The notes beneath the pieces were generated by a model. The model did not search any database and was not told the DNA's origin. It was given only the letters and a program-made list of their open reading frames with translations. Shown one piece after another: positions 183 to 9,350 of a stretch of 23,377 bases of DNA. The translations under genes and the position numbers were made by a program. The stretch covers positions 1 to 23,377 of IMG/VR virus record IMGVR_UViG_3300025395_000040. The stretch is one strand, 5' to 3'. The stretch's first letter is position 1; each line of letters starts with the position of its first letter. This DNA is from a virus.

Positions 183-603
183 TATCTTTCTTCATATCTT
201 GTAGAAGCTTCTGGAGCTCCGCAGTTGAACCTACAAATAGATTATTGTTATGAACATGCTGAGCTCTTTCATTAATAGGAGAATCAGCAGCGTCTAACTC
301 TCTAATCTTTGACTGAAGATCGAGCAGAGCTTTATTAGCGTTCACAGTTGTATCTACAAGTTTAGCAAGAACCTCAAATGCTCTCGGATGCTGACTCGAG
401 TCTGCTATCTGAGCAAGTGTCTGAATAGCGTCTCTTGAGTCCTTAATGACCTGCATAAGATTACCACGAGCATATTCAAAGTCCTTCTTAGCTGAATCAT
501 TATGACCTTCTGCGATCATAGACTCAACTGCAGTAGAAGTAACTTTCTCCAAAGGAGGAATACCTAATGCTTTACCAATTGGATCGTTTTGTTTATCTGT
601 CAT
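175..603 (-). CDS. gp16: Terminase small subunit, gp16-like
   Basis: Predicted small terminase subunit, 142 residues, close to the size of T4-like gp16. It recognises DNA and regulates the gp17 motor during packaging. The protein is mostly helical and charged, and a central stretch (about residues 55-105) looks able to form the coiled-coil oligomerisation core of the family. The ATG at 603 overlaps the gp15 stop at 600 (ATGA), and its own end overlaps the gp17 start. The call comes mainly from gene order 13-14-15-16-17, since no diagnostic catalytic motif exists for this family. Confidence 0.82.
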   Translation of the reverse strand: MTDKQNDPIGKALGIPPLEKVTSTAVESMIAEGHNDSAKKDFEYARGNLMQVIKDSRDAIQTLAQIADSSQHPRAFEVLAKLVDTTVNANKALLDLQSKIRELDAADSPINERAQHVHNNNLFVGSTAELQKLLQDMKKDNG

Positions 604-1466
604 TTACTTTCATCTTCTTCGCCATATATCATTGTAATAAATCCATAATCATCATCAATCTCGACTTGATTATATGGTATGGTGCCAGTGTTGGCGTTTG
701 GTTGGCCATAATAATTTATTGGGTGGCCGTTGGCATCCAAACCAGGTTGAATAGTTATTTTTTCAGCAACAGGTGTTTTACCAACTGCATCTGAAATTTT
801 ACCATCTGCTACATCAGGTATATAGAAGTTTGTAGTAATGAACTTAATAATACCACCAGTTTTAACAGGTCCGTAGAAATAACCTTTTAATGTAAAATTA
901 AGTTCCCACACAATCATACGGCGATCTTTATATTCTCCAGCATAATTATCTGTGTAGTTAATAGAATTAAGAATAATAGGAATATCCATATTCACTTCAA
1001 CTTCTGGAATCAGATTAACCGTAGTAGTCCAGTCAGGAGTGAAAAACGGAAGTATCTGCTCCATAATCTTAGTGCCATCTTCAACATTCTTAGCATATAC
1101 ATATGCTTTGAAATCTAAATTATATGGGACTGGATTATACTGATAACGGAATTTGTTCTTATCTGTATTATCCCTAACTGATGTTTTACCAATAGTATTT
1201 AATTTACGATCGCCGTCATATGCAATTTGCCCCATTTCAAACGATAACATAGGAAGTGTGGTAGTCGCCTCGTCGCGATCCAGTTTAGGATCCTGCATAA
1301 TACGAGCAAGCATCTTATCCTTTGGTCCATATGTGATAGGAACCTTCAAAAGAGCAACAATATTACCTTCTTTATCTGTTCTTGTGATACGGATATTATT
1401 CAGCAACGAACCCATAAGGATAACGTATTTACGAATCAACCCGAAATAAAATGGACCACCGAAAAT
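600..1466 (-). CDS. gp15: Tail sheath terminator / tail completion protein, gp15-like, probable ATT start
   Basis: T4 gp15 caps the tail tube and sheath and joins the tail to the neck. The start chosen is ATT at 1466-1464, giving 288 residues (T4 gp15 is about 272). From there the protein reads MFGGPFYFGLIRKYVILMGS, which lines up with the T4 gp15 N terminus (MFGYFYN...RRYATLMGDL). A Shine-Dalgarno AGGAG at 1479-1475 is 8 bases upstream. There is no ATG or GTG in frame before a stop at 1497-1499. The next usable start, TTG at 1439, would remove the conserved YF-G segment and has a poor ribosome site. A late promoter for the gene lies at 1554-1561, inside the neighbouring homing endonuclease gene. 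The 3' end overlaps gp16 by 4 bases. Confidence 0.87.
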   Translation of the reverse strand: MFGGPFYFGLIRKYVILMGSLLNNIRITRTDKEGNIVALLKVPITYGPKDKMLARIMQDPKLDRDEATTTLPMLSFEMGQIAYDGDRKLNTIGKTSVRDNTDKNKFRYQYNPVPYNLDFKAYVYAKNVEDGTKIMEQILPFFTPDWTTTVNLIPEVEVNMDIPIILNSINYTDNYAGEYKDRRMIVWELNFTLKGYFYGPVKTGGIIKFITTNFYIPDVADGKISDAVGKTPVAEKITIQPGLDANGHPINYYGQPNANTGTIPYNQVEIDDDYGFITMIYGEEDESK

Positions 1467-1483
1467 GGTAAATACTCCTATAT

Positions 1484-1491
1484 TATAAATA
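1484..1491 (+). promoter_or_regulatory. T4-type late promoter for the plus-strand homing endonuclease
   Basis: Exact TATAAATA octamer on the plus strand, 58 bases upstream of the ATG at 1550. By the T4 rule (octamer at -13 to -6) transcription would start near 1497, exactly at the 5' edge of a hairpin. It is one of only two exact plus-strand copies I found in the window, and both precede plus-strand genes. Confidence 0.75.
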
Positions 1492-1495
1492 CATT

Positions 1496-1523
1496 GTCAG
1501 TCACGGATGGCACTCCCACTGAC
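1496..1523. other. Hairpin in the overlapping leaders of gp15 and the homing endonuclease
   Basis: GTCAGT at 1496-1501 pairs with ACTGAC at 1518-1523. An inner GGA (1505-1507) can pair with TCC (1514-1516) around a TGGCAC loop. The element lies downstream of both facing late promoters, so it would form near the very 5' end of the plus transcript and in the middle of the gp15 leader on the minus strand. Confidence 0.5.
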
Positions 1524-1549
1524 TCTAACGCTATTAAGGAGCATCAGCA

Positions 1550-2146
1550 ATGTTATTTATAAATCTTCCATACACGTATCTAATAGGATGGCCTGAATAT
1601 AATATTTGGTACTATGGGCTTAGATACGCCAAAAAATGTCACCCCTCAGATTTATGGACTACTTACTTCACATCGTCGAAGTATGTAAAACAGGCACGTC
1701 AAAAATACGGCGAGCCATCGGTTATTGAAATAAGAAAAACATTCGAATCAGTAGAACAAGCTCAAAAATGGGAGCACAAGGTTCTTCGTAGAATGAATGT
1801 CGTAAACGAAGAAAAATGGCTGAATAAAACCGATAATAAATGCATCGACTATAACGGTATGAAGCGTAATACTATACCTGGATCATTGGCATCAGCTGAA
1901 GCCCGTAGAGGCAAAACATACGAAGAATACTTCGGCGAAGAAGAAGCTATTCGTATAAAAGAACTATGCAGACAAAACGGCAAAGAAGTTTGGCAAAATC
2001 CAGAGCTTGTCGAGCGTATGAAAAAGAGACCTGCAGACCGTTCAAAATATAGAGCCGCTGCCCTAAAAAGATGGGGCGATCCAGAGGACAGAGCAAAAAG
2101 ATGCGCTGCTATGAAAGGTGTCAAGAAAAATAAATCTATATCCTAA
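1550..2146 (+). CDS. Free-standing homing endonuclease, GIY-YIG-like, opposite strand
   Basis: A 198-residue protein resembling the putative homing endonucleases scattered through T4-like phage genomes. Near the N terminus YTYLIG and, after a short spacer, WYYGLRYA fit the GIY and YIG strands with the following Arg. WEHKVLRRM (about residues 73-81) supplies a likely catalytic Glu. The C-terminal third is basic and helical with KELCRQNGKEVW- and RAAALKRWGDP-like elements suited to DNA contact. The ATG is preceded by AAGGAG with an 8-base spacer and by an exact late promoter at 1484-1491. It sits between genes 14 and 15, and its stop codon overlaps the gp14 stop on the other strand by 2 bases. 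Enzyme activity and target site are inferred only. Confidence 0.8.
   Translation: MLFINLPYTYLIGWPEYNIWYYGLRYAKKCHPSDLWTTYFTSSKYVKQARQKYGEPSVIEIRKTFESVEQAQKWEHKVLRRMNVVNEEKWLNKTDNKCIDYNGMKRNTIPGSLASAEARRGKTYEEYFGEEEAIRIKELCRQNGKEVWQNPELVERMKKRPADRSKYRAAALKRWGDPEDRAKRCAAMKGVKKNKSIS
1554..1561 (-). promoter_or_regulatory. T4-type late promoter for gp15 embedded in the endonuclease coding sequence
   Basis: Minus-strand TATAAATA formed by codons 2-5 of the plus-strand endonuclease. Predicted transcription start is near 1548, giving a leader of about 82 bases before the ATT start of gp15. It faces the plus-strand late promoter at 1484-1491, so the two transcripts overlap in antisense over about 50 bases. 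Confidence 0.7.
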
Positions 2147-2856
2147 CTTTTGAACGGATCTTTAGAATCAAAATCGACGAATTCTTCGGCTTCTTTTTCA
2201 ATGTCATCGTTATCTGCATTATCTATAAGATCTTCCATACTAGCTTCTTCAAGAATAAGGTAATCTCCATCTTCTGTAATCAACATATCACTATCTTCAG
2301 TCATAACAGACCAATTGAATATATCCAGATCATAATGTTTCTGAATAGCATCGATCTCAGGAATGCCAGTGTTGAACTTCTCGTTCGAATATTCAAACAC
2401 TTCGCATGTCATTTCCCATGTCTGAAGAGCACCCAACTGATAGAACATCTCATACTTATTGACATAACGAATAATAAAATGGCGTCTGTTCAGTGGGAAA
2501 TAAATGACATCGCCTTCGTTTGGTCTGAACTGATTAGTTGCCATCTGAACTTCATCGTTGAATACACGACGAGCAACCGAGAACACAACCTGATTACGAA
2601 TCTCAACACCAAACTTAGATAGAAACTCTCCATCTCCAGAGAATCCATCAATAGATTTAATATACATTTCAATAGGAATAGCGAGTTCATATGATGACTG
2701 ATCATCGGCGCCATAAACTGGATCATATTTGTTCAGCTTACGAGGAACATAATAAAGATCATGACCGTAAAAACGAATAGATTCTATTACTAAATTTTCA
2801 AGTAGTAATTGCTCCTGAGACGCTTTGAAATTGTTTACGAAAAAGTTAGTGGCCAT
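2143..2856 (-). CDS. gp14: Neck protein, gp14-like
   Basis: T4 gp14 works with gp13 to close the filled head and form the neck to which the tail binds. The 237-residue length is near that of T4-like gp14. The N-terminal half is typical (ATNFFVNNFKASQEQLLLEN, then RFYGHDLYYVPR and a conserved NEGDVIYFPLNRRHFIIRYV block around residues 113-132). The C-terminal 50 residues are highly acidic. The ATG at 2856 lies inside the last codons of the co-directional GIY-YIG gene (11-base overlap), so its ribosome site is now within that gene. Its stop overlaps the stop of the plus-strand endonuclease. Confidence 0.92.
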   Translation of the reverse strand: MATNFFVNNFKASQEQLLLENLVIESIRFYGHDLYYVPRKLNKYDPVYGADDQSSYELAIPIEMYIKSIDGFSGDGEFLSKFGVEIRNQVVFSVARRVFNDEVQMATNQFRPNEGDVIYFPLNRRHFIIRYVNKYEMFYQLGALQTWEMTCEVFEYSNEKFNTGIPEIDAIQKHYDLDIFNWSVMTEDSDMLITEDGDYLILEEASMEDLIDNADNDDIEKEAEEFVDFDSKDPFKS

Positions 2857-3430
2857 GTTTTAGATCCCAGTATCTTTTTCTGGCTGCAGCCATTTTTCTT
2901 TTTGTCTCTTCTGATTTGGGCGATTTTCCTTTTCCTGATCTATTTAGAGAAATTTTTCTTTTTGTCTCTTCCGAATGCGTATTACCAAACATAGGATTAG
3001 ATTCTCTATCATATGATCCAGAAGATCTTCTAGTATTTACCATTTTATTGATACTTTCTTCCGACAAACCTTTTTTATTTCTTTCTGCCAGATCTGGTCT
3101 TTTTTTACCTGAAATGCTAGCGCCAATTTTTCTTTTAGATTCTTCTGTGTGTTCTTTCAGATAAAACTTATCGTCGCAATTATGTCTATTATAATATTCT
3201 TCATTTGTAGCAGCATTCACAGCCTGTAGAATCTTAGCTTCTAGTTTTCTTATTTCCGATAGATTACCTTCTGCAATAATATGTCTGCTAAAATCCTCTG
3301 GTCTTTCATTATATTCTTCGAGCATATATTTACTAGAACACACATAACCATCATCTACTGAACCTTTATGGGATCCAACATACAACATATTAGTTTTTTT
3401 GTCTGACCAACAATAAACGAACGCTTCCAT
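2846..3430 (-). CDS. GIY-YIG homing endonuclease with NUMOD3 repeats
   Basis: A Seg-like free-standing homing endonuclease of 194 residues that would nick or cut gene-13/14 region DNA of endonuclease-free relatives and spread by repair. The N-terminal domain shows FVYCW as the GIY strand and LYVGSHKG as the YIG strand. KLEAKILQ (about residues 62-69) carries the likely catalytic Glu. The C-terminal half has NUMOD3-type DNA-binding repeats: TEESKRKIGASISGKK, SEESINKM, SEETKRKISLNRSGK and SEETKRKMAAARKR. It is inserted between genes 13 and 14 in the same direction, starting 2 bases after the gp13 stop and ending inside the gp14 start. An AGG lies 6-7 bases before the ATG. Confidence 0.9.
   Translation of the reverse strand: MEAFVYCWSDKKTNMLYVGSHKGSVDDGYVCSSKYMLEEYNERPEDFSRHIIAEGNLSEIRKLEAKILQAVNAATNEEYYNRHNCDDKFYLKEHTEESKRKIGASISGKKRPDLAERNKKGLSEESINKMVNTRRSSGSYDRESNPMFGNTHSEETKRKISLNRSGKGKSPKSEETKRKMAAARKRYWDLKHGH
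2892..2971 (-). repeat. 20-base direct repeat inside the GIY-YIG gene (tandem NUMOD3 motifs)
   Basis: An identical 20-base string occurs at 2892-2911 and 2952-2971, exactly 60 bases (20 codons) apart. It encodes the EETKRK core of two consecutive NUMOD3 repeats. A diverged third copy lies near 3127-3145. The near-identity at the DNA level suggests recent tandem duplication of a DNA-binding unit. Confidence 0.8.
2941..2948 (-). promoter_or_regulatory. Possible non-canonical late promoter for gp14 (TCTAAATA)
   Basis: Minus-strand TCTAAATA, a near match to TATAAATA, lies 85 bases upstream of the gp14 start, inside the 3' end of the homing endonuclease gene. Similar CTAAATA strings precede gp13 and the gene at 6831. 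No direct evidence of use. Confidence 0.3.
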
Positions 3431-4441: not shown

Positions 4442-4449
4442 TATTTAGT
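4442..4449 (-). promoter_or_regulatory. Possible non-canonical late promoter for gp13 (ACTAAATA)
   Basis: Minus-strand ACTAAATA lies 26 bases upstream of the gp13 start, overlapping the stop codon of the AMP-forming enzyme. It fits late-promoter spacing but differs from TATAAATA at two positions. Confidence 0.35.
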
Positions 4450-5174
4450 TATCCTTTGGAGGGGTTATTAAAATCTACCTCTTTATTGGTTCTACCTGCA
4501 TAGAATAGAATATCATCCACTACAACAGCTTTATCCTTGGTCCTATACCAGTCATTATAAATGCAAATATCACCTTTCACAACCAATTCGCCTTTTTCTA
4601 ATAACCAATCACAATATTTATCTGAACCCATAATAGTCATTCTATTTGGGCATAGAGCTTTTACTCTATTAACTTCTTCCATATTTTCAAAAGTATGATT
4701 GATAGCTATAGGGCCAATTTCACTCATACCCCAATTAGTTATCAGTTTGCATCCTCTAATAACGAATGCCTCTATAATATCCCAGGTTACAGGCTCGGCA
4801 CCACAAGTAATAGTTACTCCTGTCAGATCTAAATCCTGAAATCCTTTAGTTCTCATAATCGCTTTCGCATGCATGGGCGTGAGATGAGAATGAGTAAAAT
4901 TCTTTATTTTCTTTATCCATTTATATGGACTGAATACATCACATGTGACATGTCCACCTATCTCCAAAGCTGGCATAGTCTGACCAAGCAACCCACCTGC
5001 ATGTGTGAGTTTCATTACCGTATAAACTCTACTGTCTGCGGTAATTCCTTGAGCTTTACGAGCAACCTTATTAGCAGCAATTATCTTAGACAAAGGCTGA
5101 ACGTAATCTTTAGGAGGACCGGATGTTCCAGAACTACTTATTATGATTGTGGATAAAATATTGCTCTGTTCCAT
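4449..5174 (-). CDS. Minimal AMP-forming (ANL superfamily) adenylation enzyme
   Basis: A 241-residue adenylate-forming enzyme core. Full-length acyl-CoA synthetases are usually above 500 residues. The ATP-binding P-loop is at residues 13-22 (SSSGTSGPPK). A THAGGLL element follows at 57-63, then GAEPVTWD at 125-132, the A5-type NWGMSE at 147-152 (Glu152 would contact Mg-ATP), the A7-type YRTKD at 210-214 and GRTNKEVDF at 227-235. The region normally before the P-loop and the mobile C-terminal domain that supplies the catalytic Lys and thioesterification are both absent. It may therefore only adenylate a carboxylate, or need a partner. The ATG lies 41 bases inside the upstream DUF6356-like gene. 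No in-frame stop breaks it, so it looks intact rather than decayed. The substrate cannot be read from sequence. Confidence 0.8.
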   Translation of the reverse strand: MEQSNILSTIIISSSGTSGPPKDYVQPLSKIIAANKVARKAQGITADSRVYTVMKLTHAGGLLGQTMPALEIGGHVTCDVFSPYKWIKKIKNFTHSHLTPMHAKAIMRTKGFQDLDLTGVTITCGAEPVTWDIIEAFVIRGCKLITNWGMSEIGPIAINHTFENMEEVNRVKALCPNRMTIMGSDKYCDWLLEKGELVVKGDICIYNDWYRTKDKAVVVDDILFYAGRTNKEVDFNNPSKG

Positions 5175-7082: not shown

Positions 7083-7747
7083 TATCCCCAAGAAATAACC
7101 ACATAGCCATCCCCTCCTCGGTCTCCATCTCCACCAAAAGCACCTACGTCTCTTCCTCCAGGGCCTCCAGCACCACCACCACCAACATAAACAGTGATAA
7201 CTGCGCCCCAAGCAGGAGCGCCAGGATCTGTACGGTTCCATCTTCTTACACAATAACCACCAGCACCACCGCCGCCAGAGCCATTTCTACCAGCACCACC
7301 TCCTGCTCCTCCACCTACAGTTACATCTCCTCCATAACCACCACCAGGTCCGCCACCATAACCAGGGCCTCCAGCACCACCACCACCTGCTCCTGAACCT
7401 AAAGAAGCAGAATCTCCACCAGCGCCTCCGGCACCACCAGCGTAACCATACGCAAAACCATCAGAAGCGTAGCCACCACCGCCACCTCCCCCGCCAGCCC
7501 ACATTTGAACCGTCATGTTTATGTAATTCTGAACTGTCCAATTTTGAGTAGAATAAAACGCTTGAGATCCAGGATCAATACCTTTACGGCAGTAGGCGTC
7601 AGAAATTTTAACTTGAGATCTTTTTACAGTATTCTTAATGAGAATACGAAACAGATCATCATCAAAATCAAGCTGTGTGTTTTTTGGGCGATCGAGCTCG
7701 ATATTTATATCACTAAAACTTATCTGACCACTACAAGGCGTTGTCAT
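7079..7747 (-). CDS. Gly/Tyr-rich tail-type protein (polyglycine fold)
   Basis: A 222-residue protein. Residues 1-55 (SGQISFSDINIEL ... KISDAY) resemble the short N-terminal module of many phage tail proteins that begins 'SGxISxxDIxxE' and ends in 'ISDxY'. From about residue 80 it becomes a polyglycine domain with regular Gly-Gly-X runs and many Tyr residues, closing with VYVGGGGAGG and GYVVISWGY, as in phage glycine-rich adhesin-like domains. It is probably a virion surface component. The ATG has AGAGGA 6 bases upstream and overlaps the end of the halogenase gene by 17 bases, so translation may be coupled. An exact TATAAATA lies inside its 5' coding part. Confidence 0.75.
   Translation of the reverse strand: MTTPCSGQISFSDINIELDRPKNTQLDFDDDLFRILIKNTVKRSQVKISDAYCRKGIDPGSQAFYSTQNWTVQNYINMTVQMWAGGGGGGGGYASDGFAYGYAGGAGGAGGDSASLGSGAGGGGAGGPGYGGGPGGGYGGDVTVGGGAGGGAGRNGSGGGGAGGYCVRRWNRTDPGAPAWGAVITVYVGGGGAGGPGGRDVGAFGGDGDRGGDGYVVISWGY
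7702..7709 (-). promoter_or_regulatory. Late promoter-like octamer inside the Gly/Tyr-rich gene
   Basis: Exact minus-strand TATAAATA within codons for DINI near the start of the Gly-rich gene. No gene starts shortly downstream on this strand, so it may be chance or may boost the genes from 6831 onward. Confidence 0.25.
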
Positions 7748-9350
7748 TATAGTCCTCTTGTTTGTAAATCGTTTCTTTCAGAAACTGATAGCTACTTAGC
7801 AGAGTAATAACATATTCCTCTACCTCTGTTTTGTATTTATTATATGTTCTTTTGGTATATGTAATCTCTTCTATTTTAGCCATAGGATCTCTCGAGTTAT
7901 TAAAATCATTATATAACATAAGTTCTGGAGTTGAAATAGATTTAACTCCCATGCCTGCAGCTACAAATAGATTATTCTGAAATGCATATGCATATTTTCT
8001 GGCCGTTACAATCATATCCATAACTCCTGGATATTGATTTTGTATAGTATAATAATTACTAAAAGACTCCTTAAAATAATCTATTTCTTGAGTGCACCAA
8101 TGCCAAAATGGAGTATCTGTTCTATCAGAAAGAGCATAAAACATTGAAGAAAATTCTTTATTCTTTAATAAGGCGTTAACACAAGAAAAGTTATAAGCAT
8201 CTACTTCAGTTCTTGTTAAATAACCATTTCTTCTATTTAAAGTATCAACCAGTTTAATAAGAGTATCATAGGTGGTTATTAGACCAGATAATTCCATAGG
8301 TTCAACAAAACCAAAACTTAAACCAATTGCTACTACATTCCTTATCCATGGCTTTTTGTGATAGCCATTTCTTATTCTGAAATGTTTAAATTCAGCCTTA
8401 TCTGCTCTATCTTTATTTGTTTTAGATAAATGCTCTCTAAACTCGGTTTCTGCTTCTTCTTGTGTGCAAAATTTCGATGAAAAATTATAACCAACTGAAA
8501 GATTATCCCACAAAGGAATAACCCAAGAAGCACCATTTTTCATACCAGTATATTCGGTATAATTCTTAAGCTCTGTTTCTCTATCAATATATGGAATATC
8601 TGCTACTATTGCAGAATCTATAGCGAGGCAATCATGAAAATCTTCATAGATCCCTCCCATCCATTTCTCTAATAGAATAGCATTATAACCTGTGCAATCT
8701 ACGAATAGATCTGCAGAAACTGTTTCTCCATCATATAATACTATCTCTTTAAGCTCTCCGTTGTCTTTAAACACAGGAGATTTAACATTACAATTTATAA
8801 CTTCTACGCCATTAGGAATAGCAACATTATGTTTCATCCATTCACCAAGAGCATTAAGATCAAAATGAAAGGCAGTATCATATTTAAAATTAAAGATTTT
8901 TAATTTATTATCGTGATTATATGTCTGTTTATTATGCTTGGTCATCAGACTATTAGATGTAGCATAAAATTCAGCAAATGATTCAGAACCAAACTCTTTA
9001 GGAAAAAACATAGCAAGTTCTGACAATGCATTAATACCCGAAGGCTTATCGCTATAATCTAAATCATAGATGAACGGTATCTGAAAAGATTCGTTTGCTT
9101 TATAATTTGTAAACTTATCAGCATTCTTGTAGGTAGCGTTACAGAACGGCATCCATTCTTTATCTTCTATACCAAGCATATAGAATAATCTTCTGAAATA
9201 CGGAATGCTGCTCTCGGCAGAACCGACAACAGTTTTTATATCAGTTTCAATAACTGTAATTTTTATATGCTTGCAGAGTTTAGCAATAGTAGCGGCTACT
9301 ATCCAACCAGAGCATTCACCACCAACCACAACAACATTATCTACTTTCAT
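7731..9350 (-). CDS. Flavin-dependent (tryptophan-type) halogenase, VirX1-like
   Basis: FADH2-dependent halogenase of 539 residues, similar in length to PrnA/RebH. The FAD motif is VGGECSGW at residues 9-16. The GxGExxxP-like segment is VVGSAESSIP at 41-50. The catalytic Lys, which carries the hypohalous acid in PrnA/RebH (Lys79), is Lys75 in CNATYK. The WxWxIP signature is altered to ASWVIP (274-279). FVEPMELSG (348-356) keeps the catalytic Glu (Glu353) but has Leu-Ser where Ser-Thr is usual near the halide site. LFVDCTGYNA (215-224) is also family-typical. Viral members exist in cyanophages; VirX1 of Syn10 is reported to prefer iodide. A flavin reductase is not in this window. The gene follows a fibre gene and overlaps the Gly/Tyr-rich gene by 17 bases. 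The substrate is unknown. Confidence 0.88.
   Translation of the reverse strand: MKVDNVVVVGGECSGWIVAATIAKLCKHIKITVIETDIKTVVGSAESSIPYFRRLFYMLGIEDKEWMPFCNATYKNADKFTNYKANESFQIPFIYDLDYSDKPSGINALSELAMFFPKEFGSESFAEFYATSNSLMTKHNKQTYNHDNKLKIFNFKYDTAFHFDLNALGEWMKHNVAIPNGVEVINCNVKSPVFKDNGELKEIVLYDGETVSADLFVDCTGYNAILLEKWMGGIYEDFHDCLAIDSAIVADIPYIDRETELKNYTEYTGMKNGASWVIPLWDNLSVGYNFSSKFCTQEEAETEFREHLSKTNKDRADKAEFKHFRIRNGYHKKPWIRNVVAIGLSFGFVEPMELSGLITTYDTLIKLVDTLNRRNGYLTRTEVDAYNFSCVNALLKNKEFSSMFYALSDRTDTPFWHWCTQEIDYFKESFSNYYTIQNQYPGVMDMIVTARKYAYAFQNNLFVAAGMGVKSISTPELMLYNDFNNSRDPMAKIEEITYTKRTYNKYKTEVEEYVITLLSSYQFLKETIYKQEDYNDNAL

Follow-up and report, generated by a model that had tools for sequence, protein, structure and literature searches.

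The window (the whole 23,377-nt stretch of viral DNA analysed) covers the minus-strand late region of a T4-like phage, with gp13, gp14, gp15, gp16 and the start of gp17, the last being assigned by gene order. Between gp14 and gp15 lies an ORF for a putative free-standing homing endonuclease (Table 1). We assign this homing endonuclease gene (HEG) from its motifs and a weak profile match, and cleavage and homing by its product are likewise putative. The GIY-YIG motif and the region of the catalytic Arg, Glu and Asn are represented: the columns YLIG..WYYG, R, WE and LN are invariant or conserved in an alignment with four divergent relatives, and the SegE_GIY-YIG profile matches with E 7.6e-4 and 20.1 bits, under the curated cut-off of 25 bits. 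No ATG is found at the conserved N-terminus of gp15 (IFGGPFYFG), which likely starts at an ATT behind AGGAG. The same ATT start is seen in the HEG-free loci L024 and L040 and in the HEG-bearing L094, and L146 has ATC; a rare start codon may therefore be recurring in gp15. A second homing endonuclease (NUMOD3; PHROG homing endonuclease) is encoded in the sense orientation between gp13 and gp14 (2846-3430, minus strand), and relatives of it occur near gp14 in several related contigs. A fragment of an AMP-binding (adenylating) enzyme and a tryptophan halogenase are also found among the late structural genes (4449-5174 and 7731-9350, minus strand). A megablast search of the window junction against cultured phages gave no match.

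Two copies of the octamer TATAAATA face each other 70 bp apart across the junction, at 1484-1491 on the plus strand and 1554-1561 on the minus strand, just where the preliminary description had placed them. The hairpin it had drawn at 1496-1523 is present and begins at the plus start, and the minus octamer does overlap HEG codons 2-5. Both ends fit a late promoter of the T4 type, with a TATAAATA-like core and the predicted start 6 nt further on, and TAAATA stands at -33 to -46 of several late genes in the window. The DNA supports the proposal of two convergent late promoters whose predicted 5′ leaders are complementary over about 50 bases and include a leader hairpin. The same description had held that HEG-free relatives keeping both promoters would speak against its idea. 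In about 38 related HEG-free loci gp14 and gp15 abut or overlap, with the end of gp14 at or near the start of gp15, and neither the TATAAATA promoters nor the hairpin are present, so that the idea survives this comparison; the insertion therefore brought both predicted promoters and the leader. The window contains nine TATAAATA octamers against 4.4 expected, and nine or more were seen in 5 of 100 shuffles. With so mild an enrichment the window alone proves little, and a functionless chance pair of AT-rich octamers might be suspected from these counts; it is the comparison with related modules that refutes such a pairing, the probability of which we consider negligible.

Table 1. Features at the gp14/gp15 junction of the window
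Feature	Position	Strand	Details
gp15, tail sheath stabiliser	600..1466	-	probable ATT start at 1466-1464
gp15 Shine-Dalgarno AGGAG	1475..1479	-	from sequence
Late promoter octamer TATAAATA for HEG	1484..1491	+	predicted start ~1496-1497
Two-hairpin antisense RNA (predicted)	1496..1548	-	covariance model R1 match 1496-1559, 66.8 bits, E 1.4e-22
Hairpin II	1496..1523	-	P1 1496-1501 with 1518-1523; internal loop 1502-1504/1517; P2 in 1505-1516
Hairpin I, 8 bp	1525..1547	-	1547-1540 with 1532-1525; loop 1539-1533
HEG Shine-Dalgarno AAGGAG	1536..1541	+	from sequence; position conserved in modules
HEG, putative free-standing GIY-YIG (SegE-like) homing endonuclease ORF	1550..2146	+	198 aa; antisense to late operon
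Opposite late promoter octamer TATAAATA	1554..1561	-	inside HEG codons 2-5; predicted start 1548 (G)
gp14, neck protein	2143..2856	-	stop codon overlaps HEG stop

Sequence comparison shows that this arrangement is no one-off: it is a copy of a conserved module of about 75 bp carried by free-standing HEGs, in which two late-promoter cores (TAAATA) face each other about 70 bp apart with a structured block between them. Two divergent relatives of the window HEG (L052 and L074), 40% identical overall and 55-59% in their best segment, occupy this junction too. They run antisense as the window HEG does and have the same leader, but the letters of their stems differ. A third relative (L066) lies in the sense orientation after gp16, and the same module is present. 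The stem pattern matches 46 viral contigs, and broader patterns combined with a structural filter, which removed chance raw matches, gave at least 218 distinct modules with an ORF start. The constancy of CTA, of the CNC-G core and in part of CAGC is no evidence, because these served as search filters; the covarying positions were left free. The copies first found through the endonuclease protein, independently of the pattern, have the same core. Most of the ORFs that follow the modules sampled encode endonucleases, which belong to several families (GIY-YIG with NUMOD3, HNH and others). Module copies are dispersed, with up to 16 in a single contig, and two cultured phages carry them, Rhizobium phage RHph_I1_18 (MN988519, at 80302-80370) and Variovorax phage V45v66 (PV558790, at 86005-86069). 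Two modules (L173:4719 and L211:5671) have no endonuclease start after them and are possible relics, that of L211 with a complete structure. Other endonuclease ORFs lie antisense at gp14/gp15 in L094 (2400-2560), L095 and L146 without the two-hairpin module, and those of L094 and L146 retain the TATTTATA motif after the start. Searches for the module elsewhere were negative: blastn with module sequences returned chance matches only, a strict 38-nt module pattern was absent from bacterial genomes, and the Rfam 15 covariance models gave no match at E<=5 to the window stretch and, across ten loci, only tRNA-like and other matches, all in one locus and none over the module.

The larger and better-supported fold of the block is, on sequence grounds, that of the minus strand, antisense to the HEG. 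In the window the minus strand from 1496 to 1548 folds with -17.7 kcal/mol (z -2.3), as against -11.3 (z -0.7) for the plus strand, and the antisense minimum free energy is lower than that of the sense strand in 183 of 199 copies. Hairpin II can also fold on the plus strand, where it stands at the 5′ end of the HEG leader. The consensus of the antisense RNA reads TAAATA-N5-G, an 8-bp hairpin whose loop of about 7 opens with CCU, an A, and then 6 bp, a G/GYG internal loop and 4 bp. The window copy was left out of covariance model R1 when it was scored. Over 41 ungapped copies 97.3% of pairs are standard, 13 of the 18 pairs have changes on both sides (131 cells vs 31 shuffled), and the covariation score is 0.544 compared with 0.164 +/- 0.013 after shuffling and at most 0.104 for slid structures. 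The contigs are metagenomic. Copies are in part related to one another, so shuffle counts are no probabilities. Read as plus strand, hairpin I is paired in only 76% of cells. Among 171 unique hairpins, scored on the plus strand, P1 departs from standard pairing 20 times as A.C and never as G.T, and these exceptions correspond to G-U on the antisense strand; the three positions free of search patterns give 11 A.C vs 0 G.T. Position 5 of hairpin I runs through the antisense-strand series U-G, U-A and C-G, and the excess of hairpin I over permutation doubles only if antisense wobbles are allowed. Among the copies from G004 and G012 (L465-L481), P1 is nearly uniform (GTAGTT) over 13 copies of one contig and differs in every sampled copy of the other; gene conversion or action in trans could account for the uniform set.

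One-strand G.T tolerance would also fit single-stranded DNA, and the block might be a DNA-level element, either as hairpins in single-stranded DNA or as an inverted repeat serving as operator or recombination end in the movement of the HEG cassette. The same module before unrelated ORFs is what a shared end would give, and at the late promoter of I-TevI an operator is bound by the endonuclease itself (PMC2988022). However, the endonuclease families differ, so that a common operator is unlikely, and the 5-nt spacing from TAAATA to the RNA start is a prediction of late promoters. We therefore rate a DNA-level element as improbable.

Both promoter cores recur across the copies. Of the 218 modules among the matches listed, 205 have TAAATA 3-5 nt upstream of P1, and in 202 (93%) the HEG start is followed by TAYTTA (TAARTA on the minus strand), compared with 69 of 1389 background starts (5%). 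This opposite hexamer occurs in all three reading frames, and its Ile codon is ATT in 117 of 127 cases vs 42% ORF-wide; frame variation and synonymous bias together rule out a protein-level cause for the motif after the ATG. The hexamer stands 5 nt from CAGC in 138 of the 202 modules listed (variance of this distance 0.34 vs 0.95 permuted; 0/2000). When the start codon is shifted by 1-2 bases the coding frame changes and this distance stays, and it is still 5 in seven modules whose start codon lies upstream of CAGC. At late-promoter-like sites elsewhere in the module loci a purine stands 6 nt after TAAATA in 74%. With the conserved spacing and this purine, each end of the block resembles a late start site.

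The facing hexamers could instead act in one RNA. In control of the I-TevI type, read-through RNA would pair the upstream UAAAUA with the coding UAUUUA and hide the ribosome site, whereas late transcripts would lack the 5′ arm. A late promoter directly upstream and a complementary downstream arm are indeed what T4 genes so controlled possess (PMC2988022). However, the flanks of the hexamers pair no better than permutation to any useful degree, and a stem of six A-U pairs around a 60-nt loop would probably be weak. A read-through stem between the two octamers was rejected, its arms lacking covariation beyond the hexamer, which favours two promoters read by protein over an RNA stem between them. 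Control of the I-TevI type thus seems very improbable here.

The HEG is antisense to its upstream neighbour in 125 of 174 called cases, the calls being mechanical (a simple ORF rule). The main rival to the explanation favoured below is that the opposite promoter and hairpin leader compensate for the insertion, serving mainly to re-express and stabilise the mRNA of the displaced gene (here gp15-gp16-gp17), with antisense effects on the HEG as a by-product. The prevalence of antisense HEGs, unlike T4 where segD stands alone (PMC2988022), is in its favour, as are the promoterless abutting of gp14 and gp15 in HEG-free relatives, a neighbour start with a ribosome site at most 200 nt from the RNA end in 82 of 125 cases, the module retained in L211 although the HEG start is absent, and the slightly greater frequency of TATTTA in antisense contexts (104/125 vs 35/49, p 0.09). 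However, promoter and structure are equally kept in sense contexts, where there is no such gene to serve (46 of 49 sense and 118 of 125 antisense insertions), which argues that the function belongs to the HEG first. Moreover, the HEGs at gp14/gp15 in L094 and L146 carry the minus hexamer without the hairpins, so that expression of gp15 would be independent of the structure. We consider compensation as the main role to be less likely. The preliminary description had seen in the arrangement a compact switch that arose through the insertion and adjusts gp15 relative to the endonuclease. Its antisense control persists as the leading idea; such a gp15 switch is not supported, since the module travels with HEGs and is kept just as well in sense insertions.

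The explanation that we favour, with confidence that is evenly balanced, is a brake on the HEG by antisense RNA and convergent promoters. RNA initiated at 1548, 2 nt upstream of the HEG start codon (its A at 1550), would be complementary to the whole leader, and the loop of hairpin I is complementary to the HEG Shine-Dalgarno core; it is for these reasons that the brake is preferred. An opposite promoter within the 5′ end of the target and a structured RNA over the ribosome site, both recognised here at the sequence level, are the marks of a cis-antisense RNA, and the module at the HEG start probably yields a folded antisense RNA of this kind. Late in infection both facing promoters would fire, and the antisense RNA would pair with the HEG leader, loops first, hiding the ribosome site. 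Convergent transcription would dampen the HEG additionally, so that the endonuclease would be made late and in small amount. Being self-contained, the module could be brought by unrelated HEG families to many sites and orientations. Where a HEG runs against the operon, the opposite promoter would restart the displaced downstream gene, here gp15 with gp16 and gp17, and in antisense insertions the module would thereby also supply a late promoter to that gene.

Several observations count against the antisense brake. A short antisense RNA would lack an obvious terminator. Hairpin II was considered as a strong terminator, its flank being A-rich on the plus strand (U-rich in the antisense RNA), yet this was not adopted because essential late genes would be cut off in antisense insertions. 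Simple antisense pairing does not account for the strong conservation of the structure and its internal loop. The opposite hexamer is variable (TACTTA in 30 of the 202 modules listed), so the promoter may differ in strength between copies. That sense insertions keep the module equally well could come in part from its recent moves.

Parts of this arrangement have precedents. T4 I-TevI and segB and Aeh1 mobE have a late promoter and a hairpin at the ribosome binding site (PMC2988022). The module resembles them in giving the HEG its own late promoter and a leader RNA structure, with expression that would be limited to late infection; their structure is formed in the sense RNA and spans the promoter, whereas that of the module lies on the antisense strand behind an opposite promoter of its own and accompanies many unrelated HEGs. 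T4 segD, a GIY-YIG HEG antisense to genes 23 and 24, is the only antisense case in T4 (PMC2988022). Like the window HEG it is free-standing and antisense in a late operon, and no promoter is known for it. The best match of model R1 in the T4 record (E 0.013) was taken as chance. In cyanophage S-PM2 the antisense RNA CfrI was observed experimentally (Millard 2010, as cited in PMC2984593). As far as that citing account describes it, CfrI too runs antisense to the gene of a free-standing homing endonuclease in a T4-like phage, as the predicted RNA of the module would; CfrI differs in being about 225 nt long, in linking psbA and F-CphI and in being one case. Model R1 gave a single chance-level match in S-PM2 (E 0.006, inside a virion gene), and the module does not belong to a CfrI family. 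In the SymE/SymR pair, the antisense RNA has its promoter within the 5′ coding region and extends over the ribosome site for a potentially harmful protein. The module would share this layout, but it has phage late promoters, serves nucleases of several families, is multi-copy and is mobile.

We found no published description of the module in the openly accessible literature, subscription papers being outside this scope. A more far-reaching proposal, which we put forward tentatively, is that the module is a mobile gene for an antisense RNA of a kind not described before. A single RNA family would act as a portable brake for unrelated HEG families, in up to 16 copies per phage, and near-identical copies may also affect one another in trans. 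The resulting RNA network would keep down the load of selfish genes in a phage. The antisense HEG orientation, rare in T4, appears common in the phages studied here. With a covariance model, hundreds of copies and two cultured phages, the module is a concrete and testable RNA family. If true, the antisense brake would settle a question of long standing about phage homing endonucleases, namely how one phage genome can hold many nucleases from different families, often set against essential late genes, unharmed. The module may be a portable brake on selfish genes, and would be a case of a regulatory RNA, rather than a protein, as the conserved part of a selfish gene.
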